A DNA stretch of 64,000 bases from positions 3,406,022 through 3,470,021 of the forward strand of contig CM041202.1 in NCBI GenBank assembly GCA_023078555.1. Direction: 5' to 3'. This document shows, in pieces, positions 31,313-62,932 of this stretch. Under the pieces are notes generated by a model. The model was not told the origin of the DNA, did no database searches, and was given only the letters and a program-made list of their open reading frames with translations. The translations under genes and the position numbers were made by a program. Source of the stretch: Ulva prolifera. Lineage: Eukaryota > Chlorophyta > Ulvophyceae > Ulvales > Ulvaceae. Every line of letters begins with the position of its first letter. Within the stretch, counting starts at the first letter, position 1.

Positions 31313-31481
31313 GGGAGCAGAGGTCCCACATGATACTTACTTGCTGGAACCTGCATTTCTCGCTCATTTGTCGTTTCACCAGTCGACTTGGGTCTTGAAG
31401 CGGATGCAGTCAAATAGTGATTTTTATGGTGATTTCAATTTGAAAGTTGACCCTGAGCCAATGGGGAATCGTTGTCACGGC

Positions 31482-41345: not shown

Positions 41346-42893
41346 CTAACTCGTGAGTTGCGCTGCCGCGTGATCGGGCGGTGGCCGCATCGACATGCAT
41401 GAGGCGTGCAAGAGCTTCTCTAACACGTCCGCCACAGTCGTGCATCGGGCCACACGTTCTAAGTGTATTGGAAAGTGGCGCACTTCCTGACCTGGCACTT
41501 GGCGCATTGTGCGCAGGAAAGCCTGAGTTTCAGAAATGCTTTCGACAACAAATGGGCCTGTGACCGCATTTTTCTTGCCCAGTCCGCGTTCTAGGACATA
41601 AGCAAGGTCTCCAGGTTGCAATTTCCTCCCCCTCCTAGGCTTGCGAATGGCCAGAAGGTGGGCTTGCCTGTCAGCATTGCGTTGCTGCGAACGGAGGATG
41701 CGATCGTATACGCGCGCAGCCACAAGCTCTGCGCGGGCGTCGCTCTCACGCACATAATCGTCCTCGGGCATGGCAGAAATCTTGACGGCTGCCATGCAGG
41801 GGTGCGCATCGGACGCGCCCACCGGAGACGGCAGCCGGAGGCGGTGTGCCATCACGAACTCATTCGGCGCATAACCGGTCACTGTATGCCGGCGTTGCAT
41901 GTATTCCATGCGTGTCTGCGGAAGCAGCGCGGGCCAATCATGGATGGCACCGGCAACTTTTGCCGCCAACATGGTCTTCATTGTGCGCACGAGTCGCTCG
42001 GCGGCGCCGTTGGACTGGGGGTGGTACGCTGAGGTCTGGACGTGGTCAATGCCAAAACATTCCAGCTGATGCCGGAAGGCACCGGCAAATTCTGTCCCAT
42101 TATCCGTGGTCACCCATTCCGGGATTCCGTAGCGCATGAACCAGAAGTCATGCACGGCACGAGCGACTGTATCGGCACTCTTGTCTCGCAGCGGTACGAA
42201 TTCCGCTACCTTTGTGAAATAATCCACCATTAGGCACACATACCCTTGGCCGGTCTGTGCCGTGGACAAGGTGGCTTTGGTGCGCCCTGCCTTGCCACGC
42301 ACTGGCGCCGCTTTCACCTCACGGAGGGGAAACGGGCCAGCAAGGTCAATGTGCACATGGCAGAACGGCTTGTTCATGCGGGGAAGCTGCACATCTGCCA
42401 CATGTTGCAATTCCAACCGCTTGACTTGGCAAGCATGGCACTGTTCAATATAAGCTGCTGCATCCAGCTTGATGCCTTGCCAATGGTAGTGCTGATGTAG
42501 CACGGCCAGTGTTTGGCTCACGCCAGCATGTCCCATGCGATCATGATACGCTCCAATCAGTCCCCAGCGGAATGCCACAGGGGGCACCGCTAGCCACAAA
42601 CGGTCGCCTGTGCGCAATTGCGTATGCTCGAGCAGCCATTCCGGGCGATTCGGATGCAATCGCAAGGTGGCAGCCTTCTTACGGACTTTGCGTTTCAGCG
42701 CTTTGGGCATATCCGGGTGGAACACTGCTTCCGCCGCAGCACGCGCGTGCTGCGACGCTGCTTCCGGGTAGCGGTCACCGCTTGATGCGTGGGAGTTCAG
42801 GGACGCGACCACGGCACGCTCCTGATGTTGAACATACGCACATACCAAATCCACCACATCTGGGTGGTGCGGATATCCACGCCGCAACACCAT
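41346..42893 (-). pseudogene. Gypsy integrase fragment
   Basis: An open 515-codon frame with an HHCC zinc region (HDRMGHAGVSQTLAVLHQHY...CHAC), a core with DLAGPF, TDNGTEF and GAAERLVRTM carrying the three acidic residues, then a GPY/F-like module (PGDLAYVL...VTGPFVV). This is the C-terminal pol of Ty3/gypsy. The frame is intact, but RT and RNase H are missing upstream. Confidence 0.85.
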
Positions 42894-43534
42894 GTGAGTA
42901 TAGTGTCTGTGAGCTGGTCGCTCGTGACTTGAGCTACCTCCGTTGTGGCACTGGCGAGTTGTGCTTTCTCGACCGCGGCTCGGCGGATACTCCCTTCTGT
43001 GCGCAATTGCCTTTGCCTCAGGTGATACTGAGTACGCCTACAGAATGTGCGGGGCACGCCTGAATGCTCCGCGCATGAATCTGCTGCAGATTTCGGCAGT
43101 TCCGCGACATTATTTCCGAGAGGTGCAGCCTCGATCAGGACACGGTGCTCCTCCGGAATTGCACTAGGGTCAAAACCCAGCTTCTGGTCGTGTGAAGGGT
43201 CAGGCACACGTAACGACGATTGTGTCGCAGTGTCCTCCCCCTCCTCCGGCGTGTTACACATCGTGTGCGACCTGCAACACGAGTTTACGTGGGCGAACTC
43301 ATCACCCACTAAATCGCCACCGTCGATGACTGGTGTAATAACGAAGGGCAAGGGGCGGCTTGCAGAAAGCTTTGCTTCCCAAGGACATATCCACAAGGGC
43401 ACTGCCTTGAGAGTCCGTGGAACATGTGTATGTCCCCTTTGAAATGCTATCGAAAACCCCTGCCAGTGCAGCATTTGTGGGGGACGGGTCTTTAAACGAG
43501 CGGACCCAGCGGCGTGCAGACACTCTCAACTCAG
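42894..43534 (-). pseudogene. Collapsed pol region of the gypsy
   Basis: About 640 bases lie where roughly 2 kb of RT and RNase H would be expected. Short frames (for example FKDPSPTNAALAGVFDSISK near 43480) may be RNase H remnants. No RT active-site motif is visible. Confidence 0.5.
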
Positions 43535-45783
43535 TCATTGAGATGAATCGGTGACGGCGCCACTGAGTTGCGTGGGCGTGAGGCGTTTGCCGGTAACATT
43601 CCATATCATCCACGGGGTCTGGAGATGGAGAATCTGGCAGAACCCAGCATCAGTGGGGTCGCGGCCCCGTAACAGATTCTGAAGCCCTTTAGGGAAATAC
43701 AACCCATATCCTTTCGGCACACCCAGGAAGATGGAAGTAACTCCCATTGACGTAGACAAGGGGTATGGCGGCGGATAGGGGGCATTGAATTTCCTGCGGA
43801 ACCTAAGTCCGAGGACAACGTCTGCCGGGGCGACGTCGACGAGCGTACAATACACCGGATAGCACGTGCAACCAAGGCGCAAGTGAATCAACACCATGTG
43901 GTCATGCCGCGTCGCGTCCCCATGGAAACCGGTGAGGGTGACAGGCCGCTTCATTTTGATACCATGAGGCTTGCCTATGTCACGGTTGTCATTGAACGCA
44001 GGGTGACCCTTTTCCCAATCTGCTTTGTGCTTCTGCCAAGCAGATTTGGTTATGGTGTTGAGTTCTGCGCCCTCATCGAAAGCGACTTTCAGCCCCTGAG
44101 GGTGATTTTTCGCGCCGGCGCGGGGAACGCTAGATGTCAAGAACCCTGTGCACTTCCGCATCTCGGCGAACGGAACGTTAAAGGTGGTTGTCTTGCCCGG
44201 CAATTTTGTCCATTCTGCACTGGAACAGAGGATCTTGGACCACGGAGCGGTGGTAGCGCTAGGGTCAGCGCCAGGGTCGCGATCACCACGACCACCGCCA
44301 CGGCCACGGCCGCGACCACCACGACCACCGCCACGGCCACGGCCGCAACCTCTGCCGTGCCCAGTGGGAGTGCCACGCTCCGTTGGAGTAGCACCACTCG
44401 CGGCGACAGCCGCAGACGCAGCTGCCGAGGCAGCACGCCGGGGCTGTGCTGAATGCTCAGCTTGCTCACGGTCAAGCATATGGCACAACGGCCGATTGGG
44501 CTCTAGATCCCCCAAGTTATACTCGTCGGACGTCTCTGTGACGCCCTGCTCAAGCAAGTGTTTGCGAGCCACAGTATGGAAAACGCGACCGAGCGTGTCG
44601 GTGCAATGTGTACCCCCAAATAACGTTATGTACAACACCGGGGTAAGTTTGGCGCGCACGTTGTGCAATCTATACACACGCACATTATCATCTATGTGAC
44701 GCGTGAACAGCTTGTCTGGCTTTTGCATGTGCCGGTCTGGTAGCACAGTGAGGCTTGTCGACAACTCCGAATGTTTGTCTAGGAAGTTGGACCGCACTAG
44801 ACGCAGCAAGGTGTCCGGGGTGCGATTCGCATCGCTGGACGCGCTCAGGTGCACGTGGAATTCTACAGGGAACATGGCCAGCAAGCGGTCATGTGTCCAC
44901 CTGTCCGAAATCACCCCCGGCAACCGTTCAGCAAACGCGCGAAACTTCACAGATTTCTCGTGGGCGCGCGCCAGCCAGTTACCCATGTCCGTGACGCCAT
45001 GCACAAACTGCAACGACTTGTCCACCAGAGTTTTCCCCCAAAATTCGGCCAAAGCTAGGCGTTTGGTAGGATTTTTCTCCTCATCCGCGGAGTCGAGCAT
45101 TGTCATGAGTTCCGTAAAGGCTGCGTCTGAGGTGATACCAGCAGCAATCGACGAAGCTTTAGCCTCTGCTCGTGTGCCTTTGTCTTCCGCGTGGAAGATC
45201 GCAGCTTCACCTGGTGCCGGTGGCTTTGATGCAGCGGCAGGCGCCGGAGACGCACATGAGGCCTGCGAAAGCACACGCGGCGGCAACACCGCCGACACCG
45301 GCAGGTGGTGCGCCAGCAAGCCGGACGACGCACGTGGCAACCCACTAGAGAAGTCAAGAAGATCAATGTCTGTGACCAAAGGGGGCAGGCTAGTGCCGGA
45401 TGCATATGGTGCGGACGTCGACGAGGACGAACTAGTGCTGACGTGGGCCAGTGCCTAAACTCGTGCGGACACCGCTGCCAGTACATACCGGGACTCTGCT
45501 TGGGCGTTCATTTCTGCCGCTGCAGCTCGCGAAAGAGTAGTGATGTCGTTGCGGAGAGCACGAATCTCCTCGAGCAATTCATTGTGCAAGTCACGGTGCC
45601 TATCCTCACTCTGCTGAAGGACAGTCCTGATGCTGGCTTGCTGCTCACTCACACGAGTAAGAATGCCAGTATGCGTGGTGGCCTGCGCCAACAGTGTCTG
45701 AATGGACTGCGTCAACTCAGCGCGTGCAGCTTGTGAATCCTGTACAATCGCACGCAGGAGCTCTTGCTGTGATATCTGCTGTA
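43535..45783 (-). pseudogene. Gypsy gag-protease, one in-frame stop
   Basis: A long frame of about 749 codons. From the insertion point at 45783 it gives a coiled-coil N-terminus (QQISQQELLRAIVQ...), one in-frame TAG at 45455-45457, then in the same frame the gag body, an RG/GRGRG-rich nucleic-acid-binding stretch near 44300, and a retropepsin-like domain (FDEGAELNTITK near 44070; VVLGLRFRRKF near 43800). The active-site triplet is DEG instead of DTG/DSG, so activity is doubtful. The start codon lies on the other side of the CACTA element. Confidence 0.75.
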
Positions 45784-45801
45784 CACTAGGAGAATGGCGA
45801 C
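45784..45801 (+). repeat. CACTA left terminal inverted repeat
   Basis: CACTAGGAGAATGGCGAC. The next bases contain GGATCCGG, GTCCGAC and TTCGGA motifs, probable transposase-binding subterminal repeats. A partial repeat of the terminus (CACTAGGAGAAT) recurs at 46750. Confidence 0.93.
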
Positions 45802-46023
45802 ATTGCGAGACGGATCCGGGTGTCGTCCGACAGATTCGGATAGGCCGTTGACTCTCCGTCACCTCTCGACAGCGTTCCGATGTCATCGGAACCGAGGTGC
45901 CAGAAAGACGTTGGACTTTGGCGCCGTATTATCCGTTGACGCGAGCATTATCTGCCGGACCGTGCTCGTACACATGGCATCTGCAGGTCAGTGCTGGCGA
46001 GTCTGTCATGCTACGAGGCCACG

Positions 46024-47300
46024 TTGGACCACGCCATTGCGCACAGTGGATCGGCGGATACAATATTACTACGATCCGTTTTGCATCTTTGATGGCTAGT
46101 ACCAACTACGGTGCTATCGCATGTTCGAGTTGGACGGGCCTGAACCAGACTTTGGGCAGGTGACGTTGTGGCCAGAACTTGGAGGTGGCGGGCACTGTAT
46201 TCTTGGATGCAGTATTTGACCATGACAAGAGTAGTCTGCAGTTTTGGCGCGGCAGCAGGTAAAACAGTGTTATGCGAGGGTCGTCGCCCTGCGAATGCCA
46301 TGCCATTGGTGCTGAGGAGGTTCCAATCTTGTTCCAATCAACGCATGCATGCGCTGGTCCAGTGTGGCCATTCGCCGAATGGCCACTCTGGTGGAATGAC
46401 GTCATCCACCCATCCGAGAGAGCACGATGCAGCTGCTTTGGTGCCCTCGAACCTGACTCTTGCAGAAGGATAGGATAGATCTATCTAGAGGCTCTTGAGT
46501 CAGGATTGTGTTGATCGCGTGTGTTCTCAGCAGACCTGGTGTTGCCGTCTGAGGCAGTCGGAAGGACGTTGAATTTAGACGCATATCTGCGCATCTTGGG
46601 AGTAGTTACCGCTTTCGGTAGCCGTTTGATTACATACTGTGGCCTATATTCATGGATCCGTGCCATTCTGCAGCAGTGGCAGGTCTGCCAAGTACCCAAC
46701 ATGGTGTGACTTCCGTGCGCAGCGCAGACTCACTGGTAGGCCGCATGCGCACTAGGAGAATCCCAGTAGTGGGATCGCTGATTACTAGAGACGGGCGCTT
46801 TGCGGACCGTGCCCGCGTCGGTGGCTCAAGTGGTCCAGCATCCGGGCCTGGGGTTGCGGTGTGGTGGGGCCTGGATTTGGTCATGCGAGACGACGTGGTG
46901 GTCAGTCGGGAGCAAGAGATGTGTACGGCCAAGGAAGTGGTCATTACAGCCTGTCTCTTGTTCGCCGGCTGGCTCCACGAGCAGACTCTCCTCGTGTCCT
47001 CGTGGGAGGGGAATGGGAAGACCCCAGTTGGGTGCACGGAGCCCCGGATGTGGAAGCCTCTGATGGGAAAAACGGAGGTGTGTGCCTGTTGGGCTGGTGG
47101 GCCGTATCACATGGTCAGCTATCCTCGTTCTGCTGCAACCGCCTGTTGACTGACTAGGGGCCCAGCCTACGTGTGGAGTGGGTGAGGAGTTAGTGCCACC
47201 ACCTGTGCCGGTGAAAGTCACCGGCCAGGTATCCGATTCAGGCGTCCGTACGACAGCAATCACCGAGGCAAGAGATCCGTAGCTGGCCCAGCGCTTTGAG
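46024..47300 (+). other. Left arm of the CACTA element, possible exons
   Basis: Plus-strand frames with some coding character exist, for example LPSEAVGRTLNLDAYLRILG (from about 46540) and a frame from 46652 to 47149. No family was recognised and splice sites are ambiguous. It contains a 23-bp palindrome and, towards its end, a C40 tract. It may be the 5' part of the plus-strand gene that follows, or non-coding subterminal DNA. Confidence 0.3.
46364..46386. repeat. Palindrome, left copy
   Basis: GTGGCCATTCG-C-CGAATGGCCAC. With its flank (CGCATGCATGCGCTGG) it resembles the reverse complement of the palindrome repeats at 60984-61115. Confidence 0.85.
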
Positions 47301-47340
47301 ATTCCACAACCCAACGTGGGGGAGAAGCGCAAAGGCCCGG

Positions 47341-47341
<1 letters not shown>

Positions 47342-47381
<40 letters not shown>
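47342..47381 (+). repeat. C40 homopolymer
   Basis: Forty consecutive C inside the CACTA element, about 300 bases before a G30 run of opposite sense. Confidence 0.9.
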
Positions 47382-47384
<3 letters not shown>

Positions 47385-47680
47385 TGAAGGTGTGCTCACT
47401 TTCCGTCTGTCCATGATTGCGGCAGTAATTCCTTCTGGCGCCACCGCGTGCGCGCCAACACCACCGCGTGCGCGCCAACACCACCGCGTTCTTACATAGT
47501 TGAAGTACATGTAATTCTTTGGCGTGTCCCATGGGTCCTGGATAAGGCACTTAATGTGATGCGTCGGTGCAGTTTCCGGGTGCTCAACACCCCGACACAT
47601 TGTGTGGGCATGGGCTTCGTACGTCTCCGGCCTGTCCCCACATCTCACAAAAATGTGGACCGCCGGGAAGCAGAGTGCCG

Positions 47681-47684
<4 letters not shown>

Positions 47685-47713
<29 letters not shown>

Positions 47714-47714
47714 G
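47685..47714 (+). repeat. G30 homopolymer
   Basis: Thirty consecutive G just upstream of the first well-supported plus-strand exon (about 47757). Confidence 0.9.
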
Positions 47715-47756
47715 CGAGTCAGGCAGGAGCAGGGAGAGACCCACCTCCAACCTTCC

Positions 47757-49140
47757 AGAGGGACTCAACCCTCTGGTAGTGTGGGTCTTGTATGAAAACG
47801 CACACTGCAGCCGTCTCCGCGGCGTGGAGGAAAAGCTTCTACATCCGTCTGAGTCGGTAGCCCGGCACATTGGGGACCGGTGTCACGCGATGCTGGCCAA
47901 CACAAATGGGGTCCCTGCCACCCCGGTGTACCAGCTGAACTCGGGCGCGCCGGTATTAGCGGACATGGACGCCTTCCACTCTGACCTCATCCAGGCTTTC
48001 GTGCGCTCCTGCGACTTTACACAAGTCCGGCGTTGTCTGGCAGAATTGCATGTATGCGTGCGGGTTGTTGTTCACAGGGCCTGCATGCACTCGCGCATGC
48101 ATGGTAGTGGCTGTGGTGTCCCCGTTGCGGGTGATACCTCGGTCCTCCCCTGTCACAGGGCTGCGCTCGAGTTGTCCAGCGGGCCTCCTTGCGTGCAGGA
48201 TGTGAAATGCCTCGGCGACTTCGTCACCGCTGTATCCACTCTAACACCCTGGGTGTTGGCTTCTGCGGCGGAGCACCCACTGTTCGATTGGTCTGGGGGG
48301 GTTCGATGCGCCAATGTTCTGTACGTGACAGGTTGACCTGCGTGACTTTGTGCTGCTATGGCATCCACCAGTCTGTCCATCCCCCCAGGCTGGTTAATAC
48401 CTTGTTCCATCCGTGCAGGGAGACCAAGTTGCCCGAGCCCTCCGCCCCGCGTGGAGCTCTGTCCACATGTTCTACTCCCATATCATGGGAGCATGTGCAG
48501 GGCTGCGGCGGACCACCGAGGACCTGGCGGCATTCGCCGAAAGTGGTGTCCACCTGTTCCTGCATGCCTACCTGCGCCTCGTCGCTGCGGCAGCGACTGG
48601 CGGCCCTGGGGCGCCTGACCTGGAAAGGCGGTGCAAAGAGGACATTCCAGTGATGGAGTCCAGCCTCCTGGGTCCTGCCTTTGCCGCCATCCTGGTGTGC
48701 GTGGTGAATACCAGCAGTGCGCAGTCTGGTTTTATTTTGCCATTGTGCCTGTGCCCAGTGCTGCCCTGTAGTAGCCCCTTGTGTGGGGCAAGCCAATACT
48801 GAGCAGGCATTGCGGACACCTGAAGCACACGGCGCATGCAGGCTTGGTGAAATCGGGGTACGGTCAGCCCGTCAAGAAGTTGGTGGACGAGCTGCTTCCC
48901 TTGTGCCCGTCCCACACGCTGTGGCACTGGGCGCTCAGGAGCTGGCGGCACCTGAGTGTGGCGTAAAAAGTCTCCGCGGGGAGCAGTTCGGGCAGGCCGG
49001 TCTCCACGACCGCCGTTCGCCTAAGGCCAGGGACATTCCCTGAGATCAAGGACTGGGGATACGCCGGCGCTGCGGAACTGGCGAAGCTGTCTATCGCCAA
49101 AGGAATGCAGAGTCCAAGCTGCTGCAAGTGCGCACACCCC
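47757..49140 (+). CDS. CACTA-borne plus-strand gene, unrecognised
   Basis: Exons at about 47757-48051, 48159-48320, 48419-48694 and from 48842 are separated by short GT-AG introns. The product is mostly helical, with pieces such as SESVARHIGDRCHAMLANTN, WSSVHMFYSHIMGACAGL and GYGQPVKKLVDELLPLCP. A further exon near 49030-49139 ends KGMQSPSCCKCAHP before a gtaagc donor, and a following frame reads CYEIPCGHFSAPLC. Together C-x-C and C-x-H would fit a SWIM-type zinc finger, but the exon phases do not close cleanly, so this is tentative. The 5' start was not identified. It transcribes opposite to the transposase. Confidence 0.45.
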
Positions 49141-49202
49141 GTAAGCCGTGTGTTTCTGTACCAGCGGGTCTCTGCTTACTAAATTGCTGTGTCTATTGTC
49201 TG

Positions 49203-50662
49203 TACGAGGTGTTCCAACTTGTTATGAAATACCCTGTGGCCACTTCAGTGCACCTTTATGTGGCGGCAAATCTGGCACCTATGCAGTGCGGAGCTTGTCC
49301 ACATACCCGCGGGCATCCTCGCCGCTCTCCCGGAGGGCAGCCAACACCACCCTGTCATACCGCCAAGTGACGGCGCGGGGGGGGGTCGGCGGCGGGCGCA
49401 GTGCAACAGAGAAGGCTGGAGCTGGCCAGCGCATTCGTGTAGCCGGTGGGAAACCTGGGGTGGGGAGGGTGACCGGCGCGGGAGGCAACACTGCACGCGG
49501 AAAGGCTTTGTTGCTGAAAAAATTGGGCGCCCAAAAAGCCGACAAGGGAGCTACGGCTGCCGCTGCCGCCGCGGACAGCGCCAGCGCCACAGACGAGTCC
49601 GGTGGGCGGGGGGGCACCACACGCCGTCCAACCGGGGGGTCAGTGGCTCCTAAACCGCTCGGCAGCGTTGACGCAGCCATGTCCGGGCAGGGAGGACCAG
49701 CTCCGCAGCCAAGGGGGGGGGGGGGGGGGGGGGGGGGGGGGTGAGGATGGCCTGGTGCCTGATCCTGCAGTACCCAGAGGTTTGCAGCCCACGGCGGCAG
49801 CGGCTGGCGGGCCGCCCAGGACGCTGGCTCCAGTCGAGGCGCCGGGCCTTGCCGCGCCGCCTGCTGAACCTGCAGCACTTCCGTCGGATGGGGCATGTGC
49901 CCCAGACGACATGGGAGAGGGCCTCAGGGACCCGGTCCGCCCGAGCGAGGTGAGCGCCGTGCCTACTGCTGCACCGCCGGGTGGGGCCCCGAGCCAAGTT
50001 GCATCGGCAGGGCCGGGTCCGGCCAACACAGCTTCCCCTCAGGATGGCCCGGGTGTCGTCCTTGTCCCCGTGCAAGCTCCCGTGGTGACACCCGGACCCC
50101 CTGCGTTAGGGTCAAGGGACGCTGTCTGTGGCGATGGCGATGGTGTTGGTGCAGATGGTGCTATCACCGACTATGCATCAGCCCTCGCCTTCGCTGTTCG
50201 TCTTACAGATGACGCGTCGGATGGTCTTTCCAGTCTGGGCCTTGAAGGTGAGCCGGATGATGATCAGCCGGGTGAGGAGGTTGAGTCGGATGATGATCAG
50301 CCGGGTGAGGAAGTCGTACCTGGGCCCCCGCCTTCCCAGGTCATCCACCTGCAGGATGATGAGGGCAGCCTACAGCTGACTGTGGACCAGTGTCCCGCAG
50401 CGCAGCAAACCCACGTGCGGGTGGACGCCTACTTAGACACCACGCAGGCACCTGGGATAGGGCGCCCTGCTCAACTGCGGCTCATCGTGTTAGCCTGCGA
50501 GTTCATGATGTTGAGCAATCCCAGGCTGCGCTCGGATCCGCATGCGCTGTCCACCAGCCTGCAATCGGTTGTTCAGCTGTATGGGCTTCAGCCGGACAAT
50601 GCCACTGTCAATGAGATCCTCGTGCTTTTCCAAAGAGGATGCTTCGTCAAGTTTCTCTACCT
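49203..50662 (+). CDS. Continuation or second plus-strand gene, low-complexity
   Basis: A Gly/Ala/Pro-rich frame crosses a G29 tract (49713-49741) and continues after it as a Pro/Ala-rich linker, then an acidic tandem repeat (EPDDDQPGEEVESDDDQPGE near 50255-50310) and a helical segment (LRLIVLACEFMMLSNPRLRS). It closes at a gtatgtgac donor at about 50663. A further exon may start at about 50891. It may be the C-terminal part of the preceding gene. No family was recognised. Confidence 0.4.
49713..49741 (+). repeat. G29 homopolymer
   Basis: Twenty-nine G in a plus-strand reading frame. Any length change alters the frame, so the real protein across it is uncertain. Confidence 0.9.
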
Positions 50663-51324
50663 GTATGTGACAGTTGTTTGCCCTTGCCCCCCACTGGCTA
50701 TGGGGCCCATGCGGGGGGGTAGGGCTGGGGGGTTTGTGTGTGAGAGCAATCTCGTATCTCCGGTGTGCGGTTGTGCCTTGTTTTATTGGGCGTATGGATG
50801 CAGTCATGGGGTGCTGTCATTGCCGGTTTCCCAATTTGTGATGATGGTCCTTGGGGTATTAACGAAGGCGACTTGTTGGCATGCAGTACAGCAGTATGTG
50901 ACATATCGCAGGCGTGAGCCTGGGTATCAAACGTTGATCTGTTTCTTAGACTTCCATAGACCAGCTGTACTCAAAACTTTGAGTCAAAAGACTACGAACC
51001 AGCCACCCTTTGTCGTTTACATGATAGCCCCATCGCCAGGGGGGCCCTGTGGCCACCACCCCATTGTATCTGCATTGCTATGGCGTTGCGTAGCATTGGC
51101 GCATACATGACCCCCGCCACATGACTGGTGAGCACACCACCTGGAGCTTGGCGTTGACTGCGATCCTACCGGCGACGATCTCCACTTCTACATGACTCAG
51201 CGACGCAGCTGCAGGTTCTTGGCCATTACCCGGTTGTATTGCCCGCATAGGGTTCTGACGTACGGTTGTGCCTCCTCCATGAAGGCGTCGAAACTCGCTT
51301 GGAGATACCACTGCCTGCAGTCAG

Positions 51325-54300
51325 TTAGTTCCTATTGTGAGACGTTCTTGCTGCTGCGGTAGGGGCGGGCGGGGTTGGTCCTCTGCAGAGGTTCTGAAGA
51401 CGTAACGGGACTGCAACCCCTGAGGAACCCCACTGCGACGAGATGCAACGAGGCAAACAGGTTGCCTTGCTCATCACATATGGGTGTGGAGGTGCATACC
51501 TCAGCTCTTCTTCGGACTTGTCTGAAAAGGGCGGAGACTGGAGGTGGCGGTCCCACCTCGCGTCGGCTAGAATGTTGGTGGCATCCTCCTCGGATAGTTG
51601 GCCCAGCACATCGCCACCTCTCCCGCCCCGGTGCCACTCTTGTATGAGTGCCCGGGTCAAGAGGATACGGTACAACACCGCGTGTTGCATGCTGATGCGG
51701 CTTGTGCGCTTTAGGACCCTTCGCGTTACTTCCACTCCGTGCAGATCACTGGGCACCATGTCTCCCCCCTCCTGTTGCATTTCGCTCATAGCCTGGCATA
51801 CCGCGTCGGCCATTAAAACAGTGTATACCCCGCAGTCGTGGCCGTTCGGTTGCTGCGGGACTCCGGCGACCTGGACCCCACAGTGTGTTGTGGGGGACTG
51901 AGGTGACATCGGTTAACTGACACAACGGTTGGTCCAGTACGATGCTATGGCACAGTGAGGTGCTGTCAGGGGTGGGGCCGGGCAGTGGGATGTTGACGTG
52001 GCTACAAGGTCATGTGATGCATCGTGCTACTCACGGTACGCAGATGACAGCGATTGTTACGCCGCATTCTAATGAGCATTCAACTGTGAGATTCGAACCT
52101 TCGCAAACTTCAGCAATATCCTCGCGGTAGATTTTGTCGGTCGGGTGGCCAATCTCAGGTTGTGTCGCTGGAGCTGTCCTGCCGACAGTGACAGGGACTT
52201 TGGGGGCGGGGGGGGGGGGCTGGCAGTGCGGCCTGTCGCGGGGGCCCTGCCCTCCGGGCTGTCGAGAGCCCTGCACAGGGCCTCACTTAGGGCGTTCTGC
52301 ACCCGCTCACCTGTGCCCGGCCCGGCTTCCGTGAAGCTGTCAAAAAATACCATACTCGGGGTCTTGTCTTGTAGCATGAGCCCTGCATCATGACGACACC
52401 ATGCGTGTTGACAGTCAGGAGGCCGCCCCACCGGGTGAGAGGACGAGAAGCCCACCTAACACTCTGCACAGGCATGGTCAGCCGAGGGGAGCGTACATGG
52501 ATGCCATATGACAGCCAGTGCCCAGTGGCCGTTCCGCGGGACTGGGACGAGGATGCATTCCTGTTCGAATGCATGAGCTTGTTGCAGCCAGCTCCCCAAT
52601 GCGTCTGTGCGGCGATCAGTCCATTCTAATCCCGCATCCTCAATGCACACCACAGCCATGTTCTGGCTAGGCACTGCGATGACACCCCGACCTGCCAGCT
52701 GCACAAATCTAGAGCACGCGTAATCTACGTGGGGTGACTCCTGCCACTCCTCGGGCCAGCCTCTCCCGAGGGCACCCAAGCTCACTACCACAAATATCCT
52801 AGCTTCCCCAAAGTGACCCAGCTGCACCGTCACTTCCCCTGTCGGGGGTGATGGCTCCTCTTCGTCGGAGGAAATCTCCGTCGCAGGATCCCCCGCATGC
52901 GACGTTGTGGCGCCTTTCTGACCAGCTCCTGGAGCACTGGGCGACCACAGCTGCTTCAGATTCCCCTGAGGATTGGCTGGCAGATTCGAAAGCCACGCCG
53001 GAGGATCAGGCGGAGGCGGGGCCAGGTGTGCGACGGACAACACACCGCCACCTTCAGCCATGGGAGCAGCTTCTTGGCCGGCCGTTCCCGGGAGGGGGGC
53101 AAGCAGCCAGGGACCCACCAGTCCGGGGGTAGCCCTGGACGGCTCGGCGGATTGCTGCGCCGGGGGGACATCACCGCATGGGATGGGGCTGACCGCGCTG
53201 TTCCCGGCCGCAATGGGGGGAATGGGGCCAGGCCCGGCAGACGTGTCCGCGCGCGCAACCACCCCTCCGTCACGGTGGTGGGGGGAGCCACTGTGACCGT
53301 CGTCCTCTCTTGCTGCTGGGGGAGGATTGGCGTGGATGACGGGCCCTCCCGAGCACCAGCCACCGGCCGGGGGGAGGTCACTGGGGTATTCCCCAGGTGT
53401 GGGGCTTGTGCCTGTGGTGGACCCACCTGGCATCTGAGACGCCTTAGGCGCTGGCGGGACGGCCTGTGATGGGGCGTGGCACTCCATCGGTGGGGGCAGA
53501 CATCCGGTGGTCCTGGAGGGTGGGGAGGCAGGGGCCTCTGGGGTGCCGGGCCGTAGTTGCTCCGGCGGCTCCGATGTATGGGGACCCCCACCGGCAGGGG
53601 GGTTCGAGTGCTCCCCCGCTGCGGCTGGCTGACTGCCCAAGACCCGCTCTACTGCTGCATACCCCCTCGCCTGCCACGATAGACCCCCCTCCGCGGCTGT
53701 GCGGGCTGTTGCAGGCCATGCCCACGACTAAGGGCATGTCCCCCCCCAACCGCCCTCCCCCCGTGCCGAAGCTGTCGCTGCCCACGCCGGCCACGCTTCC
53801 CCCTTGCCCCGCCCTCCGGTGCACTGTCGACGCTGGAAGCAGCCCGCGCCGAAGTACGGCCCTCATCGGGACCCGATGTTGTGGCGTGCCTCGTGACCCT
53901 CGGCGGACTCGGGCGGGCGGCGGCCCCCTGACTGATCTGCAATGCCATCAGCGGTGCCTGTACTGGGGCCTCCGTTACTGCAGACGGTGGCCACTTCGGG
54001 ACCGGATTCCGCGGAGCCGCGGCCTCCCGCTCTACCCATTCCTTTATCCTCTCTGTCCCGCCTGTGAGCAGCACACGCTCGCAGACGCCGCCAACATCCT
54101 CCACCACTCCCCCCGTGCCCAGGCATGACCTATACAACACAATTTCCGGGGGCTCGCACGGGGCCTCGGTACGGACTGCGCGCTCGAACGCGAGAGCCCG
54201 AAGGTCGTGCCACAAGGACGTCATCTTCCACTCTACGTAGGAGTCGTTGTCCGTCGGGGTCACTGCGTCTGCTGCTTCCTTCATCGCTCTAAGCGAATCA

Positions 54301-54900
54301 AGATATATCTGCAGCCCATCCCCTCCGGCAGCTACCACACATCCCACCATGGTAATGTCTACTGCTGTAAGAACGTAGCCAAGACCCATGAGATCGATGG
54401 GGAATCCCGGGTCCCTGTCGCATAGCGATATCTCGGGGATGGGTTGGCCAGGCGTCCAGTTTCCTCTCTCTGCAGCCTCCACAAAGCGATAGAAAGACTT
54501 CTCATACGACTCATGCCTGTGTAAGTTAGCTAGCAATGTCCTTAAGGCCCCATCCGATATCATACTTGCACACGACAGCAGGAGGCTCCGATTCACTGCG
54601 ACGTCAACGTCAACGTCGACTGGCCAAGACAAATGCGCATTCTGCAGGTAGCAATCTATGCTATGGAGACGATATGCGCATGCGACTACAACGCCGGTGG
54701 TCGAAGAAGGCCACATGTGGCTACACGCGCACCAAGTACGGCGACTGGCTAAGGCAGGCGAGCACCGGTGATGCCATTTCGCTGCAGCTGCACTATACCT
54801 CGTTATCTCGAGCACTGTAGCGCTGCGGGCTGGTGCCAGGGTGGCGCAGCTGACACTGTCCTGAACACAATAGGTACATAAGGCAAGACGCCACGGTTTA
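51325..54900 (-). CDS. Ulp1-type (C48) cysteine protease of the CACTA element
   Basis: The minus-strand exons carry the catalytic elements in family order. His-Trp lies in VPVPRNGHWALAVIWHP (near 52530), Asp in MVFFDSFTEAG (near 52340), and Gln plus Cys in VPQQPNGHDCGVYTVLMAD (near 51830). Upstream are a Pro/Ser-rich linker (about 53.6-52.9 kb) and a helical N-terminal part (LLANLHRHESYEKSFYRFVE near 54500). SUMO-protease-like domains are common partners of Tnp2 transposases in plant CACTA elements. Introns separate the three catalytic blocks, and the start was not determined. It could also be translated as part of a larger transposase transcript, since it lies directly downstream on the same strand. 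Confidence 0.8.
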
Positions 54901-54930
54901 CCTACGGATTCCGACTCATGATTCCAATCG

Positions 54931-55456
54931 TTATCTCCTGTACACATTACTATTCATCCTCAACGGCTTCAACCAGTGTACAAATCTTGACACAGAACCT
55001 GACCCGACTTGGTTCATCTTGGTCCCCAAAGATCCGTGCCCCAAGGTCAGAACGGATAGCTTACAAGCCAACAATGGTCCTTCACACAGTGCGGCCTGAT
55101 GCCTTATTGGCCGTCGCCCAATACTGCACACATTGTACACTACTTCTGACGGGGACTAGTTGGCAGGGCAGAGCATCCACGTCTATTACGTATCTACCTT
55201 CATAGGCCCAGGACCCACGGTGTGCACCCGCGACATAAAAAAATTCGGGGGGCCGCCCCAACACTGAGTCTGGCGCGCGGGCTCCCGGTGTGGCTGGCTC
55301 CGTACTCCTATACAGGTCGGCAAATCCCAGATACAACGGGTCGGGCTCGTGCACACATGACACGCAGGTGACCCCGTCCCGGGGCTGCAACGTCGCCTGC
55401 ATCAAGTACTGCAGTTCCCCTACGTAGTATGTCACTGTCGGTCCGCCCTCTCCCCG

Positions 55457-55495
<39 letters not shown>

Positions 55496-58400
55496 ATGAT
55501 GTACTTCACGAGGCACCACTTATTATCCTTCTTTCCTTGTGTTGATTGCTGTGCACTGCTGAAGACATCCACCACGCGGGACTGCACCCGTTGGAATTTG
55601 CGGAGGGACACTGTGCCCTCCTCGCGATGTGCATCTACAGAACCATTCACCGGCAACCCAAGAGCCCGTGTGATAGCCACCCGGCGGGAATGGCCCGGCC
55701 CCCGGCGACTGTGCGTAGGCCAGCCCTCTTCTCGAGGGAGACCTGGTGGAAGAGGAGGTACGGCAGCCCGGAAATGGACCCTCCTGTGAAATCCATAGGG
55801 AGTTCCTTGGCTGACTCAGAGACAGGTCCCTGCCAGCGCCATGCACCCGGCCGGTAACCCGGTCAATATCACGAGATTGCTCAGGTGCCGACCTGCCACT
55901 GCGCGTTCGCGCCCTCCGGCGTTTCTTAGTGGCAATGGCATCCGACAGAGTTGTCATGGCTGCATCCACTGTGCCAGCATCATGCAGTAACCGCATACAA
56001 GTCCGACGGAGCAGTTCATCGTTCACATACACCTGTTCTGGACAACGAGTGGAACGGGACTTGATCAGCCTCTTCAGGGGCTGGACCATCCGCTCTATCC
56101 AGAATTCGAGACTGAAGAAGGCTGCACCGCAGCACCTCACCTGATCCGGGAGGTGACAAGCCGCCAGATGCAGCTTGTAGGTACGGATAGCAGCTCCCTC
56201 GAATGTCTCCTCCGCCAGCTTGGCGTACTGCAACAGCGTCCCCTGCGCCTCAGTGATCCGGGCTGGTGTGTGCTGCCCGACTTCATACCTGAGGAAATAC
56301 AGGGCCCCTGATCGCAAGAGCCCCCACATCTGCTCAAACACTTTCCGAATTGGCAACTCAGACGGCTTCCACGGGAGATTGTGTAGGAGGTACAGGGAGA
56401 ACGTCTCGGTGAAGGCCAGCCAGTCCTCCATGAGCCACCGACTGCGGTGCCTGCAGGAGACCCTTTCGTTGAGTGATTCATGCAGAGGTGGTGACACGGC
56501 GATGACCAGGTATAGGTGGGCCCCTCCACAGGCAGGGGAAGTGTCGGCACAGCCTAGGAACTGACGACCAAGGTGACGCACTTGGTGATGTCAGTGTACC
56601 TTCTTGAAAAGAGACGTCTGCATGAGATGGGGAGCTCTGGCAGCGATCACCTTGACAACATCCTCCGGCAACCGGTACAGGGCGCAGGGCCCCATCGGGG
56701 GCGCCTTCTTGGATTTCTTCCTGCCTAGGGGAGGGAGCCACTGGTTCCAAAAGTCCATCAGAACTCCAAGCAGGGAGACGTGCGCAACTCCAAGCCGGAA
56801 GAAATGACAGGGACTGCATGCGACGCATGATGAGGTGCACAGAATCGTCACACAGGCAATGCATGGAGCAGCATTCGGCAGAGGTTGCAGGGCGTACTTG
56901 AAGCAGGAGAGGATGCTGAACAGCGGGGACCCTTTCACACTCAGTAGCTTGTACTCGTCCTTCGCGAGCTTAGCCCTCAACTCCGGCGTGTCTTTTTTGC
57001 AGAATAGATCCCAGCTCGGAGCATGCACCTGAACGCCCATCCATGCATCAGGGGTTCCTGCGGGGGTGCAATGGTACTTCATCTGGCCAACCGGCGATTG
57101 CATCGGTCATGCGGCCATCAGGTCGTGTTGGCGACAGTACGGTGAACATCAAGAAGGAGTGGCCACGGAGTGATCAATGCAGTAGTCAGGGAGTGTGCAT
57201 AGGGGCCGAGAACATGAAGCTGCACCTGGGCGGCGATCTTGTCGCCTTTTCTGCCCCTCGCCATGATCTCTGCCGCCGAATATTTCAGTCGGTTGTCTGA
57301 CATCCAGGAACTTGGTGGCACCGGCTGCGGTTCGGTCCACGCGGTCCGCGGCGGGAAGCCACCTGAGTCAGGTTGCACACTCCCGGCCACCATCCGCGGG
57401 GTTGCCGTCGATGCTGCAGCTTCCTCCTCTGGAGTGAGTGCTTTCCCCTTCAGAGGCCCATTGGCATAGCAGGGGGCGTCTGATGCAGAGGGCGATGGTG
57501 TCCCATCCACCTGCATGCATGTGAGGGGTGGTTGGAAGTTAATGTATGGGCCAAGACAGGCAGGTTTGGGATGCGAATGGATGCAAACACTACGCACCTC
57601 ACAGTATTGGCGGAGAACACCCACACGCCGTTCTGCGCACATCTGAAACATGCCCTCTTGGCCGTATGACCGATGTTGTTGGTTAGCTTCTCCAGCCAGG
57701 GGATATCCCCCTCCACACAGCAGAGCACCGGCCAAACGGACAGCTTCTCGCCACCCGGCAGCGTGATCACGATGGGGTCCTTGCGTGGTGTAGTACCTAT
57801 GACCGGCGCGCGAGGACTGGTGACACCGGGCACGGCCGTGGACAGGCGGTTTGTCATGAAGGTGAACGAAGAACTGCAGGCGGGGGAATGGTTGATGACG
57901 CACCCAGATCATGCTCCTTGAAGAAATTCACCACGGACTCGAGAATGCTGGCCATGCATGTCGGCTCGGAAGGACCCTCCACCACACCAAGGGGAATCCA
58001 GGCCTCATTAGTACATGCGAGATGGGGCGGGAGATCAAGCAGGTAGATCCCCCAGATTGTGACGCCGTGCTGTTTGTTGACATACAGTTGTGCAGCATCC
58101 TCCCCTGCAAGTGAGTGGTGAGGCATATGCCGCAAGGGACACAACACTGCGTTCTCCAGTAAGCAGAGCAGCAGGAATGAGGAGGGATGAACACACCGAG
58201 ACCGAACAGCAGAACGACATCTGGATCTGTGATTTTGTTCCCACATGCATTGTCCAGAGCCTTTCCTGCAAGGGAGTTGATGAAGCTGGTCTTGTCCTCG
58301 ATCGCTGCTGCCCTGAATTCTTGGATGCTCATCAGCAGCCCCGGTTGCAGCACGAGGTCCTTCAGTGAGGCCTCTTTACCAAAGTAGAAGACAGAGCAGA

Positions 58401-59602
58401 CTGGGACACCCTTTCCCGTGAGGTCGACGTCGAACCGTGGCTGTGTACATCCAGGGGTGCCACAGGTGTCCTCCAAGTGATGCTGATGGTCACTTGGATC
58501 AAGCTCAGGAAACAGTTTCCAGCACTGGGGACAAACGTGCCGCGTCACAGACGACACATCCGGGACATCCAACACTGCCTTGACGAGGTGGAACGAGGGA
58601 GGGAAAAGGTTGCCATCGGGGAGCATTAGGCAATGTATGAAACGGCACAAAGTGTCGACGACCACGTCTTGTATGCGAAAGAGGCTCTTCAGGTTGGCAA
58701 TCCACATGCACACCGTCAGCACCGTGAGGCTGTTCCCGGTGTAGCTGGGGAGCAGACGTTGCTCGTGCCACCAGGCGCCAGTGCCCTTCCGGGCCCCTGT
58801 GGTGGGGAGGGGGCTGTTGACGTCATCGTCATGCAAGAGGAAGACACAGGACACATCTGAAAACGGCACGCCAGATGAGACACGCTGTAACAGACCGAGG
58901 TTGAAGTTGACACACCTCAGACTCAACCGAGCTGCATTCTGATTCTGACGAGGAGGCAATGGAGGAAGCGTCTGGGAAGTATGAGTCCGAATCTGAATCC
59001 CGGGCGGGGTACTCGGCCTCGTCGATGTCGGAGGGTGGGGGCAGCTGTAAAATCACGCGAATTAGTGCAGTAGCTGCAGATGCAGGTGAGGGTAGCCGCA
59101 CCGCCTGGCCTGGAACAACAGCGGACCCACCCATGGCCCACAACAGTCACTGTCAGACCAAACAACAGCAGGCAAGGTACGCGGGCATAGAGCGCCGGGA
59201 TGCATGGAGGAGTTCGCACAGCGAAGAGGTCGTCAGAGTTGGCGGGATGCTTGGGGTGGCAAGCCAGCGCAAGGGGTATGGGCTGTGGCAAAGAGGGACC
59301 AGCCCCATCGGGAACCCCGCTGACGTCAGCCCCAATGGTAGCGTAGATGGCCGCGAGGATGGACCTGCCCCATCGTGACCACCAGCGGCTCCCTGGGCAC
59401 CGGCCGCGGCCCTCCTCAGGCGCTTTTGGCAAGGCTCATAGTGGTTTTGAGCTGTGGTATGTCTGACGAACTTCTCACCACAGGCTTGACACTGGAATTT
59501 AAGTGTCTCCTTCCCCACACGCTCGGGACGGAGTAGACGCTTACAGTTTACCTCTCCAATCAAGGCATCGACATCCTCCTTCGTCCTTCTGGATGGGGCC
59601 AT
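54931..59602 (-). CDS. Tnp2-type CACTA transposase with N-terminal zinc finger
   Basis: It starts at a Met at 59602 (MAPSRRTKEDVDALIGEVN) and then has a C2H2-like finger (CQACGEKFVRHTTAQNHYEPC). An acidic Ser-rich region follows (near 59.0 kb). Then come the Tnp2 N-terminal part with HVCPQCWKLFP and CGTPGC (near 58.5 kb), an RNase H-like core piece (YVNKQHGVTIWGIYLLDLPP near 58.05 kb), and a GDIPWLEKLTNNIGHTAKRA block with C-x2-C (near 57.7 kb). LGVAHVSLLGVLMDFWNQWL lies near 56.77 kb, and a DUF4218-like block with a conserved acidic residue (KLHLAACHL...FFSLEFWIERM) near 56.1 kb. A DUF4216-like C-terminal piece (YYVGELQYLMQ near 55.43 kb) comes after a G37 run. Introns are numerous and not all resolved. 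The first acidic residue of the catalytic triad is not obvious in the usual DG context. Confidence 0.82.
55458..55494 (+). repeat. C37 homopolymer in transposase gene
   Basis: Thirty-seven C (G on the coding strand), probably inside an intron just upstream of the DUF4216-like C-terminal exon. Confidence 0.9.
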
Positions 59603-59833
59603 CTTCAGGGATCGGCATAAAAGGGTGTAAAGGTTACCTGTGGTGAGTCTCTGGCACCTACAGTGCGGACAACCGCATTCACGTCAAAAGAGTCCTCCGG
59701 CACGTACACAGAACGCCCGGCCGCCACGGCGACGGGACGTGCGCCGGGATATCGAGGCAGACCGGTATTCGAAAGCAGACACCGCAACGACGCTTGACTT
59801 CCTTACCAGTGAAAGCGCGGCACAGCACAGCAT

Positions 59834-61959
59834 GTCAGGACAATTATGTCTGATACTGATTCACAATAACACCTACTGCCGTTGCGTATCTTACTGTCTC
59901 AACATCTACGTCGATTACCGCAGTATGACCAACCTGCAGTTTACATTCCATCGCGCCTCGCCGGTCGTAATCGAGCAAGAAGTTGTGGATGATGTAGAGA
60001 TCGGAGGAGGGATGCTTGATGTGCTGGTGAGCAACGTATGGAGTAGGGGCGCCGGCATCGACGGATTAACTCTGGCGTCGACCGTTGACAAGGACAGCAC
60101 CGTAGACATCGATTGTCAAGAGAAACTGAAGACTTGCGTATTGTACTTCTTCAAGAAAGGCACCATAGCCGGTGTGCTTGTGTCGCCCGTGCTCGTGAAG
60201 CCGCTGGGGAAAGGGAGAGGGAGCAATGCAGCAGTGCCGACAGCGCAGGGCATTGCCTTTTCCACAGCCACGGTTGCGTGCGGCGAGGATGACGTGAAGT
60301 GGGAGCGGATGAAGGATGGGGTGCTGATGTGGACGACACGAATGCAGACCGGAGTCGGTCGCATGGCAGCGGCTGGCAAAGAAGGAAAGCTGGTGAATGC
60401 ACTCATCAACGAGGAGGCCCCAGCCGACGAGAGGATGTGCCCAGGCAGCTTTCTGACGAGAGCTTACGCGGGCGCGCTGAGAAATGCAACATCAGGGGTG
60501 CGACTGCCATGTCAGAATAACAATGTGCTTGGAACATGTCGTCCGCGGCCAGCCCTCCAGCACCTGTGGCTTCCGACCTATTGTGTGAGCTCCTGACTCC
60601 TGTCCGTGATGCCATCTGCATGCAGTGTTTACTGAAAGATGTTGTGTACAGGATGGTAAAATTGGCGCAGCTTACGTCGCTGCGAGGAATATCAGCAGTG
60701 CTTTCTACAGTCAGAGTGGCTGTCTGAGCGACAAGAACAGACAGTGCGCCGCTCAGGAAGCTTACGTTTCCTACTTGTTTTGATGCACATGTGGTGTTGC
60801 GTCCCGGGCCCGATATGGGCAGCCGCTCAGGGGCGTCTACCGAGTGTGCAGGAAGTTTCCGGGACGGGCGTATGACCACAACATGGCGATGCAAAGGAAG
60901 GATCCGTATCGCGAAGCGCCCAAGCTGCTTGCGGCAGTGAAGAAGTTTGTGGAATCCAAGGCACGTCCTTCTCCTTGGTAGGGGCTGGAGTGGCCATTCG
61001 GCGAATGGCCACTCCAGCGCGTCATGCATTGTATTGCACTGCACGCGCACAGAGTGGCCATTCGGCGAATGGCCACTCCAGCGCGTCAGGCATTGTCTTG
61101 CACTGCACGCGACGAAGCAAGAGCCTGTGCATTTCACCATTAGAGGAGACCGGACCCCAATAGACCACGAACCCTTGAAAACGCCTGAGGCATGGGCAAT
61201 GGAGGACGGCGTGTATGTGTGCGAAAATATCACGGCATTCACTGGGGCCCGTCGCGCTCTCGAAGGGACCGCAGACTCGACCGTGAAACCTGGCAAGAGA
61301 CCAAGTAAGAGCGGGAAGGTACACCCACCTGACACCCTGTACTGACTAGGCCACTAATGTGATCTGCCTGTGACATTGACCGAGACAAGCAGGCGCCTGC
61401 AGGCACCTACCGCAAACAAGGCACGAAGACAGGGAGGTAATCCCAACACAGGACGGCGCACGGTGCTCACCGATCTGCCATCTCCACCACGAGCGCTCCT
61501 GCGACGATCAAGGGCAGAACAACATGTTCATGAGAACAGTGAACAGCAGCCGGAAGCGGACGAGGCGGGTCCCGTACCGACGGATGAAGAGGCCGAACCT
61601 GAGGCTTCTCAGCCTCTGGACGCACGCAGCTCCTCACCGGAGATGGAAGTGCAAGCCATGGCACCGGTATGGCATCTCCAGCTACCTGCTTGTGTCTGAG
61701 ATCTCTGTCCGCGGATAATTGCCCCGCCCATTACCCTGCCAGCTGGAAGAGCTCTTGCGCGCTGCAGAAGTCTCAAAACGCGATCGCGAGGCGAAAGGCC
61801 AAGGCCGACAAGAAGGCTGACGAAGAAGCACGTGACGAGTTGAAGAAACAGATTAAGGAGTACGAGACTCGGCTGGCGGAATATCGGCCCACGAGCAAGA
61901 GCTCGGCAGTGCAGAAATTAAAAGCTGATATTGCGCTATTCACGGTACGTCAATCTTGA
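59834..61959 (+). CDS. CACTA-borne plus-strand gene divergent from the transposase
   Basis: Likely exons start near 59834 (MSGQLCLILIHNNTYCRCV), with a frame through FHRASPVVIEQEVVDDVEI and WERMKDGVLMWTTRMQTGVG to about 60490. Others lie near 60836-60960 (GVYRVCRKFPGRAYDHNMAM), 61400-61660 (basic then acidic low complexity) and 61780-61959 (Lys-rich coiled coil ARRKAKADKKADEEARDELK, stop TGA). It shares a promoter region of about 230 bases with the transposase. A DNA-binding accessory protein in the manner of TnpA is possible on position and composition alone. The family is not recognised, and exon joins are guesses. Confidence 0.4.
60984..61115. repeat. Tandem 64-bp repeats with perfect palindromes
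   Basis: The first palindrome (60984-61018) has 17-base arms GCTGGAGTGGCCATTCG around one G. The second (61052-61078) has 13-base arms. The two 64-bp units are almost identical, with about five differences. A third, inverted copy lies at 46364-46386, at the other side of the element. Confidence 0.9.
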
Positions 61960-62901
61960 TTCGATACAGTTGATACTACATTTAACACCAAAGTCTGTAT
62001 TAAAACCAATGTTTGCATATGATTAACCCATACGACGAATGGATCCCAGGTGGTCTGGGAGACACGGACTAATGCCGCAGACTCATGCATCTGGTCATGC
62101 CTGCAGGTGGAGTTGGTGAAGGTTCAAGACTCATTATTGCTTCACAAGTAGCGAAGCCACCTCCTTCAATCGCCCATCATAGATCCTTTGCCCGGTCGGG
62201 TGCATGTCATGTTACGGGATGTTGAGTGTCCCTGTAGGAGTGAATGTTTGCTCTGACTCGAGGTGAATGTGGGAAGTGCAGGCAATGTAAGCACACACAT
62301 CACACAGATTCAGGCAAGCTGCCAATTCCAGTACCGTGTTCACGTTCCCCAAATGGTCAACACTGGGTCCCCAATCAAAGCACGTGCGTGCACGCCGAAC
62401 ACAACACCATGTACATGTCAACTCACGCCCAGCACGCTCTTGGCGACTCATTGATCCGTGTCTACAAGTGCACTGGTCTAGTCACGAATGTATCAGTGTC
62501 CACGAGTAACGAACCATTCGTGACATGCCTTACGAGATGTCACAAGCCGCACGTCAGAAATCACCATGGACTACGGCCCAGCCTACGCTGTCCGTCGCCC
62601 CCTGTCGGATGCCAGACGTATGCGAGCCGGATCAGGCATTTGATGCAAACGTCCGTTCTCCGTCCGTCGGACGGCCAACGGATCCGTGATTTCCTCCGTT
62701 CAATGTCCAATGGGGCTCCGAAGGGAGGCTGAAGGCAACGAGCGTTGCCCTGTGACTCACCGGACGGGAAACGGAACATCCTGCCTACCTCTGCAACATC
62801 GCCCCGATAGTCCGGGCAACCTACGTCCGGCCTCCACCGATTCTCCGAAGGCTCTCCAACTGCCCCTCCGTACACACTACGTCAGCTCTCCGATTCAGCG
62901 C
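61960..62901. other. Right subterminal region of the CACTA element
   Basis: No credible exon was seen. Motifs of the TCCG/CGGA type cluster here (for example CCGTCCGTCGGACGG at about 62663 and TTCTCCGAAGG at about 62841), as expected for transposase-binding subterminal repeats. Confidence 0.45.
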
Positions 62902-62919
62902 GTCGCCATTCTTCTAGTG
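62902..62919 (-). repeat. CACTA right terminal inverted repeat
   Basis: It reads CACTAGAAGAATGGCGAC on the minus strand, one mismatch from the left end, and is followed on the plus strand by the duplicated GTA. Confidence 0.93.
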
Positions 62920-62932
62920 GTAGGGCAGCCAT
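62920..62932 (-). pseudogene. Start of the gypsy gag frame
   Basis: Minus-strand ATG at 62932-62930, then GCT GCC CTA and the first base of a CAG codon whose remaining bases lie at 45780-45779. The frame then continues as the coiled-coil gag N-terminus at 45778 and below. This places the insertion after the fourth codon. Confidence 0.85.

Follow-up and report, generated by a model that had tools for sequence, protein, structure and literature searches.

The 64,000-nucleotide stretch of the Ulva prolifera genome analysed here (assembly GCA_023078555.1, contig CM041202.1, positions 3,406,022 to 3,470,021; hereafter the window) contains a complete EnSpm/CACTA transposon. Four gene blocks lie between its terminal inverted repeats in the order A, U, T and B. 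The outer two, A and B, are orphan genes that read rightwards, and enclose an Ulp1-like protease gene (U) and a Tnp2-like transposase gene (T) that both read leftwards. The element also carries 27-bp palindromes, one near its left end and two between exons of gene B. Table 1 gives the positions of these features in the window. The exons listed are cores with approximate edges.

Table 1. The CACTA element and its features, in window positions.
Feature	Position	Strand	Details
Complete CACTA/EnSpm element	45784-62919	.	17,136 bp; GAATGGC-terminus subfamily
Left terminal inverted repeat	45784-45801	+	CACTAGGAGAATGGCGAC; one mismatch to the right repeat over 18 bp
Right terminal inverted repeat	62902-62919	-	CACTAGAAGAATGGCGAC; 18 bp
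Target duplication GTA	left copy 45781-45783, right copy 62920-62922		
Left palindrome	46362-46388		27 bp; 12 of 13 positions paired; single unit
Gene A, orphan	46652-50621	+	exon cores 46652-47095, 47727-47999, 48199-48315, 48419-48716, 48842-48955, 49031-49127, 50369-50621
Gene U, Ulp1/C48-like protease	51500-54564	-	protease part 51500-53051; upstream conserved region U1 53933-54564
Gene T, Tnp2-like transposase	55086-59588	-	C2HC-like finger 59400-59588; D1 in 57935-58104; D2 and C(2)C in 57620-57743; H(4)H and E in 55820-56449
Last large exon of T	55086-56449	-	frame-broken in this copy; poly-C/G tract near 55457-55494
Gene B, orphan	59925-61944	+	exon cores 59925-60512, 61127-61312, 61750-61944 (third weakly supported)
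Right palindrome array	60988-61078		two perfect 27-bp palindromes, 60988-61014 and 61052-61078; 64-bp spacing; between exons B1 and B2

The ends of the element are exact. There are 243 exact matches to the terminal pattern CACTAGNAGAATGGNGAC in the whole 88.9-Mb, 44-contig genome, 119 of them forward and 124 reverse, whereas the reversed pattern, searched in the same genome as a control, has none in either direction, so the termini are not a product of chance. When both flanks were joined minus one GTA into an empty-site query of 220 bases, 26 genomic places matched over all or nearly all of its length at 74-96% identity. The other seven of the 33 rows were the window's own flanks (two) and partial matches (five), and the empty sites were read from the identity table. 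These insert-free matches mean that the element inserted into a dispersed repeat, many copies of which have the site unoccupied. A 3-bp duplication is exact in 12 of the 18 elements compared, and C1b becomes a thirteenth if two altered terminal bases are allowed; in the remaining five (C9b, C1a, C20, C8 and L045) the triplets differ. Inverted 5'-CAC...GTG-3' termini and 3-bp target duplications are those of EnSpm/CACTA elements. Elements of the Kyakuja-Dileera-Zisupton group make 8-bp target duplications, and those found here are 3 bp long. A CACTA element with exact ends is thereby confirmed, including the 18-bp termini with one mismatch and the GTA duplication that had been proposed from the letters alone (hereafter the sequence-only reading). 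Two of the copies with differing triplets, C9b (C9:360494-378281) and C1a (C1:4665834-4683436), are 98.8% identical and have seemingly swapped flanks (CTG/GGG and GGG/CTG), which look like the outcome of an exchange between the two by recombination, or of a join made in the assembly. C20, which lies on a contig of exactly 200,000 bases, has the same right flank as the C9 copy.

The window element is one copy of a large and successful EnSpm/CACTA family. Genome searches with each element end scored the best 40 of 72 and 40 of 67 candidates, so the copy counts are lower bounds. Among the ends listed (100 of 243), 37 adjacent pairs face inwards less than 40 kb apart; 17 of these span 16.9-19.4 kb, 12 span 3.4-10.6 kb and eight have other lengths. 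We compared the window element with ten further full copies, three short elements, the end pieces of three others and one full copy of a third subfamily (s3), which is 18,211 bp long and has CACTAGGAGAATGGTGAC ends flanked by a duplicated ATG. Nine of the ten further copies belong to the subfamily of the window element, being 88.8-89.9% identical to it and 94.6-99.3% identical to each other. The tenth, C1s2, represents a second subfamily and shows 67.5-67.8% identity to all other aligned copies. The other copies terminate at the same positions as the window element. Together with the conservation of the plus-strand regions between copies, this favours a real unit by the refuting conditions that the sequence-only reading had set. 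The closest relative by its ends among the matches listed (95%; C3:6503018-6539806) is 36.8 kb long and appears to owe this length to a subfamily-2 element nested inside it, as end, T, A and B matches are found there. A stretch of about 208 bp in the window copy (54768-54975) is missing from most other copies; as an 88.7% match to it sits within the third-subfamily element, this stretch is possibly a small mobile repeat in its own right.

Coding exons were called from the codon substitutions between the window copy and C1s2; over-long chained genes that the gene finder proposed on both strands were dropped, and the exon cores were kept. For each exon, the annotated-strand frame was taken as the best of the three on its strand. 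In all 25 exon cores this frame contains no stop, either in the window copy's own codons or in those of C2 and C1s2 aligned to them; insertions that these copies have and the window copy lacks do not enter this count. Against C1s2, the ratio of non-synonymous to synonymous substitutions (pN/pS) lies between 0.08 and 0.63 across the 25 cores: 0.44 in the finger exon of T and 0.08-0.32 in its nine other exons, 0.23-0.53 in U, 0.26-0.60 in A and 0.39-0.63 in B. The other two frames of the annotated strand give 0.70-4.18 and mostly contain stops. Protein searches in s3 recovered A, U, T and B with order and orientation unchanged. The element thus has genes on both strands, as the sequence-only reading had held; these genes are conserved, and the layout is not that of plant En/Spm, with two products on one strand. 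With lengths counted, single copies show lesions: B1 and B2 in C8, U1 in C20 and C1b, U5 in C1s2, T6 in C1a, T5 in C1b and A5a in C9c. In C9c, 4,322 N also mask nine exons.

That the plus-strand frames are chance openings or shadows of the minus-strand genes is barely credible. Opposite-strand pN/pS is lowered too (0.58 against 0.59 on the plus strand in A2, 0.56 against 0.63 in B3), and in gene finding the minus strand often scores close behind the plus strand. However, none of the 10 exons of A and B has a stop in its plus frame, whereas the best minus frames contain stops in seven, and the plus-strand protein matches recur in s3 and in metagenomic proteins.

The exon cores of A and B are open in the window copy. 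In s3, all six pieces of A were recovered on the plus strand at 29-47% protein identity, and two of the three exons of B at 34-41%, also on the plus strand; exon B3 was not found there by protein search. A recurs in three subfamilies, and B in three subfamilies plus three further end pairs, always in the same place and direction. Genome-wide, A has at least 125 matches (125 of 287 candidates scored) and B at least 122 (122 of 281), the relatives of B ranging down to 38-44% identity among the matches listed. Pfam scans of raw open reading frames yielded little because of the introns; in later scans, which used joined or spliced exons, neither A nor B reached any cut-off. For B, PT26-6P_helical (E 0.0073 and 0.012) and FHBP_N (E about 0.09) remained below the cut-off and were set aside, and a comparison of B with PDB gave nothing significant (best E 0.42). 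Protein database relatives, all metagenomic, number eight for B, five for T and five for A (the B search scored the 7,997 candidates sharing most words), in every case without a Pfam domain or name. Three of them (P0001, P0002 and P0007) are near-identical to loci examined in this genome and so possibly stem from this species or a near relative. Scans with two peptide patterns each confirmed no relatives of T or B in viral contigs and none of T in prokaryote genomes.

These results change how the plus-strand genes are seen. The sequence-only reading had proposed at least two unrecognised genes on this strand, which A and B are, being conserved between copies and below the Pfam cut-offs; it had also taken them for cargo, and here it does not hold, since recurrence in three subfamilies means that they were not picked up by the window copy. 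Capture of host genes by CACTA elements is known (PMC2528002), and the Pfam scans link neither A nor B to a family of transposon proteins. Even so, an origin of A and B as captured host genes is highly improbable, given that three subfamilies hold them at the same place and in the same direction and that no stand-alone relative was noticed among the scored candidates, of which not every match had its surroundings checked.

The motifs GxxAQLY, EGDIPW...CFRC, KLHxAAxH and FWIERMVQxLKR of T are present in the window copy and in the second and third subfamilies. Compared by eye with the description in PMC12730594, they supply the aspartate-aspartate-glutamate (DDE) residues of EnSpm transposases, and the C(2)C and H(3-4)H pairs fall after the second D and before the last E; the catalytic roles of these residues are putative. 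The C2HC-like finger is conserved across three subfamilies and misses the Pfam cut-offs. DUF4218 matches occur in five of five T members under the cut-off (best E 0.0013), and the Pfam scan of the spliced T model gave no match to Transposase_21. In s3, the finger is 37% and the C-terminal part 50% identical, and seven of seven further pieces show 45-82% identity; genome-wide, T has at least 213 matches (70 of 898 candidates scored). The stretch that matches the last large exon is one open frame in C2, C9b and C1s2 and is interrupted in the window copy, so that two introns placed there by the gene finder are artefacts of frame breaks. Per-copy length checks flag T4, T5b and T7 in nine of nine other readable copies (C9c is unreadable there), which results from the window copy itself departing in length. 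The window copy lacks an intact transposase. The zinc-finger Tnp2-type transposase of the sequence-only reading is supported by the conserved finger and motifs and qualified by the Pfam scores and the broken exon. Its C48 protease stands: Peptidase_C48 (PF02902) passes the Pfam cut-off on the joined U exons (E 7e-8), SENP2 matches at E 6e-7, and the catalytic H, D, Q and C of this family, read by eye, are in place. Three of three U pieces were recovered in s3 at 38-43% identity. The upstream region U1 may be part of U or separate. Runs of about 30-40 bases of poly-C or poly-G lie near 47343-47382, 47685-47714, 49713-49741 and 55457-55494, the last within the transposase region.

We next turn to the palindromes. 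Only three 27-bp palindromes in the 64-kb window pair at 12 or more of 13 positions, and all three lie inside this element. All 11 aligned copies have palindromes on both sides, as do s3 and all three further end pairs with GAATGGT termini, which parallels the repeated motifs inside both ends of plant En/Spm. Each aligned copy (n = 11) has one to three left units, starting 535-761 bp from the end. The right array, with two units in the window copy and four to eight in the ten other aligned copies, starts about 1.8-3.1 kb from the element end, and by tblastn positions it lies between B1 and B2 in C1s2 and s3 as well. Elements with GAATGGT termini carry a different palindrome of the same 13-1-13 geometry: s3 has five left, four middle and seven right units, and the three further end pairs have 6/8, 12/15 and 9/13 (left/right). 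Among the 18 elements examined, three of the GAATGGT group as end pieces only, C-type palindromes are found only in the 12 GAATGGC elements and T-type palindromes only in the six GAATGGT elements. In both types, the half-site shares 7 bp with its own terminus. In most C-type copies GAATGG is predominantly followed by C, for instance in 27 of 30 cases in C1s2 and 19 of 23 in C2; in s3 it is followed by T in 34 of 37.

Two short elements with GAATGGT termini, L045 (6,511 bp, 18 palindromes in all) and L049 (6,027 bp, 13 palindromes), retain palindromes on both sides. Neither matches A, the large exons of T, the domain of U or the main exon of B. L049 matches exon B2 only; L045 matches B2 plus 24 and 9 residues of U2 and T2, which look like chance. 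With their similar layout and expanded right arrays, the two probably form a non-autonomous family.

The palindromes are likely candidate binding sites of an element-encoded protein, comparable to TNPA or VANC targets. It is unlikely that they are functionless satellite-like repeats spread by slippage. Unit numbers do vary between copies, the units look homogenised, one short element has lost the right array and plant CACTA elements have captured tandem repeats (PMC8978399). On the other hand, palindromes on both sides are kept in all 12 full copies examined and in the two gene-poor short elements, and the 27-bp geometry is constant and its type matches the termini, although the sequence outside the palindrome units differs between arrays. 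Somewhat more plausible, though still doubtful, is that the arrays are not parts of a transposition complex but targets of an anti-silencing protein encoded by A or B, as VANC proteins bind tandem motif arrays of VANDAL elements in Arabidopsis. The arrays here, in the B intron and upstream of A, resemble VANC targets in such placement, in their changing number of units and in having two types, and a right array at least about 1.8 kb inside the end is not subterminal. Yet the core is common to the termini themselves, which fits transposition better, and the likeness to VANC comes from array descriptions, A and B being below every Pfam cut-off.

Taken together, we consider it probable that the window holds an EnSpm/CACTA copy with four gene blocks whose palindromes are read by an element protein. 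A complete element of about 17-18 kb carries A, U, the DDE transposase T and B, with A and B on the plus strand. T most likely excises and inserts the element; the 3-bp duplications are its observed footprint, and the enzyme activity is suggested by motifs. The palindromes near the left end and in the B intron would most likely be bound by B, A or the zinc finger of T. In the terminal repeats, the same protein would also read the GAATGG core, and each lineage would thereby recognise its own copies, much as TNPA acts on subterminal repeats in plant CACTA elements. Judging by its family, U may remove SUMO or a related tag from proteins of the element or the host. With its broken transposase frame, the window copy would rely on other copies for transposase. 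More tentatively, and as no more than one possible course, orphan A or B would read one core in both ends and arrays, and the GAATGGC/GAATGGT split would separate lineages that do not cross-mobilise.

Several observations weigh against this picture. The 7-bp overlap of half-site and terminus also arises in 165 and 178 of 20,000 mononucleotide shuffles for the two types (about 0.8-0.9% each), which makes the core match modest. C follows GAATGG in just 10 of 19 cases in the window copy, and array L043 is mixed at this base (22 T, 7 C, 1 A and 1 G), which is the one coupled to the termini. As array units and elements are related, the match of types does not represent many independent events. The short element L048 (3,431 bp, GTG duplication) has only exons A1-A3 and left palindromes, so the right array may be dispensable or was lost after insertion. 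The assignment of T as a transposase rests on motifs, its Pfam matches staying below the cut-off. Against C2, the three exons of B have pN/pS values of 0.60, 0.75 and 1.67, while A4 reaches 1.15 and U3 1.10, indicating weak constraint on these exons within the subfamily. AlphaFold models of the main exon of B have predicted local distance difference test scores of 35 and 36, too low to show a DNA-binding fold.

If the proposed recognition holds, it would amount to a private code within a CACTA lineage, split by one base of the core between lineages that reside in the same genome. Co-evolution of CACTA DNA-binding proteins and repeat motifs has been named as future work (PMC2613891). As two many-copy lineages with type-matched termini and arrays share one genome here, this coupling is directly testable. 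With A and B, the transposon repertoire also gains two conserved protein families that have no known Pfam relative.

Further repeats lie in the window. Beside the element (41349-45783 and 62923 onward), whose insertion interrupts the dispersed repeat described above, a Gypsy-like integrase frame lies to the left on the minus strand (41349-43037); we infer that it belongs to that repeat. Copia-type gag, integrase and reverse transcriptase matches fall in a single open frame of 1,851 amino acids on the plus strand (24094-29646), followed by the frames of a second Copia-like copy (30256-35793). Elsewhere in the genome, 38 matches, counted by exon, fall to the chlorophyll a/b-binding family; in the PDB the best of them matches an LHCI-2 chain (9vfj) first and many further chlorophyll a-b binding proteins after it, as is likely for a green-lineage alga but not exclusive to one. 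A search for the pherophorin family (DUF3707) gave no match, and neither did its control.

The element fits the EnSpm/CACTA definition of PMC12730594, where this group is placed in the CMCT clade together with Plavaka, and differs from it in the extra opposite-strand conserved genes A and B and in the terminus-type palindrome arrays. The size, which the sequence-only reading had called untypical, and the Ulp1-type gene both have plant precedents: Tam1 measures 17 kb and Tgmt* 20.5 kb (PMC2613891), and grapevine CACTA elements measure 10-25 kb and have an Ulp1 domain in five families (PMC2528002). That interpretation is thus partly supported, and the palindrome arrays and the broken transposase frame of the window copy go beyond it. 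Like grapevine CACTA, the element is large and has an Ulp1 domain; the accessible text of PMC2528002 mentions no conserved opposite-strand pair such as A and B. With plant En/Spm, Tam1 and Tgmt* it shares, beyond the size range, inner repeats that differ between subfamilies, which are bound by TNPA in those elements (PMC2613891). In plant En/Spm, a single spliced gene region yields both the transposase and the TNPA-like products, and the repeats are subterminal (PMC2613891). The present family, in contrast, has separate genes on both strands and a right array inside an intron. VANDALs are Mutator-like elements with target duplications of about 9 bp, unlike the 3-bp duplications and EnSpm-type motifs found here. 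The likeness to the VANDAL/VANC system of Arabidopsis lies in the arrays: VANC targets are tandem repeats in introns and upstream regions, copy-variable in number and with C- and T-type versions (PMC5735166). In the literature covered (titles, abstracts and passages, from few subscription journals and outside Repbase), we found no four-gene algal CACTA element with palindrome arrays. The large size, the Ulp1 domain and a DNA-binding accessory protein with diverging motifs all have precedents, TNPA and VANC among them (PMC2613891, PMC2528002, PMC5735166); what is apparently new, in that we did not find it described, is the combination of a conserved opposite-strand A/B pair with palindrome arrays that echo the termini.

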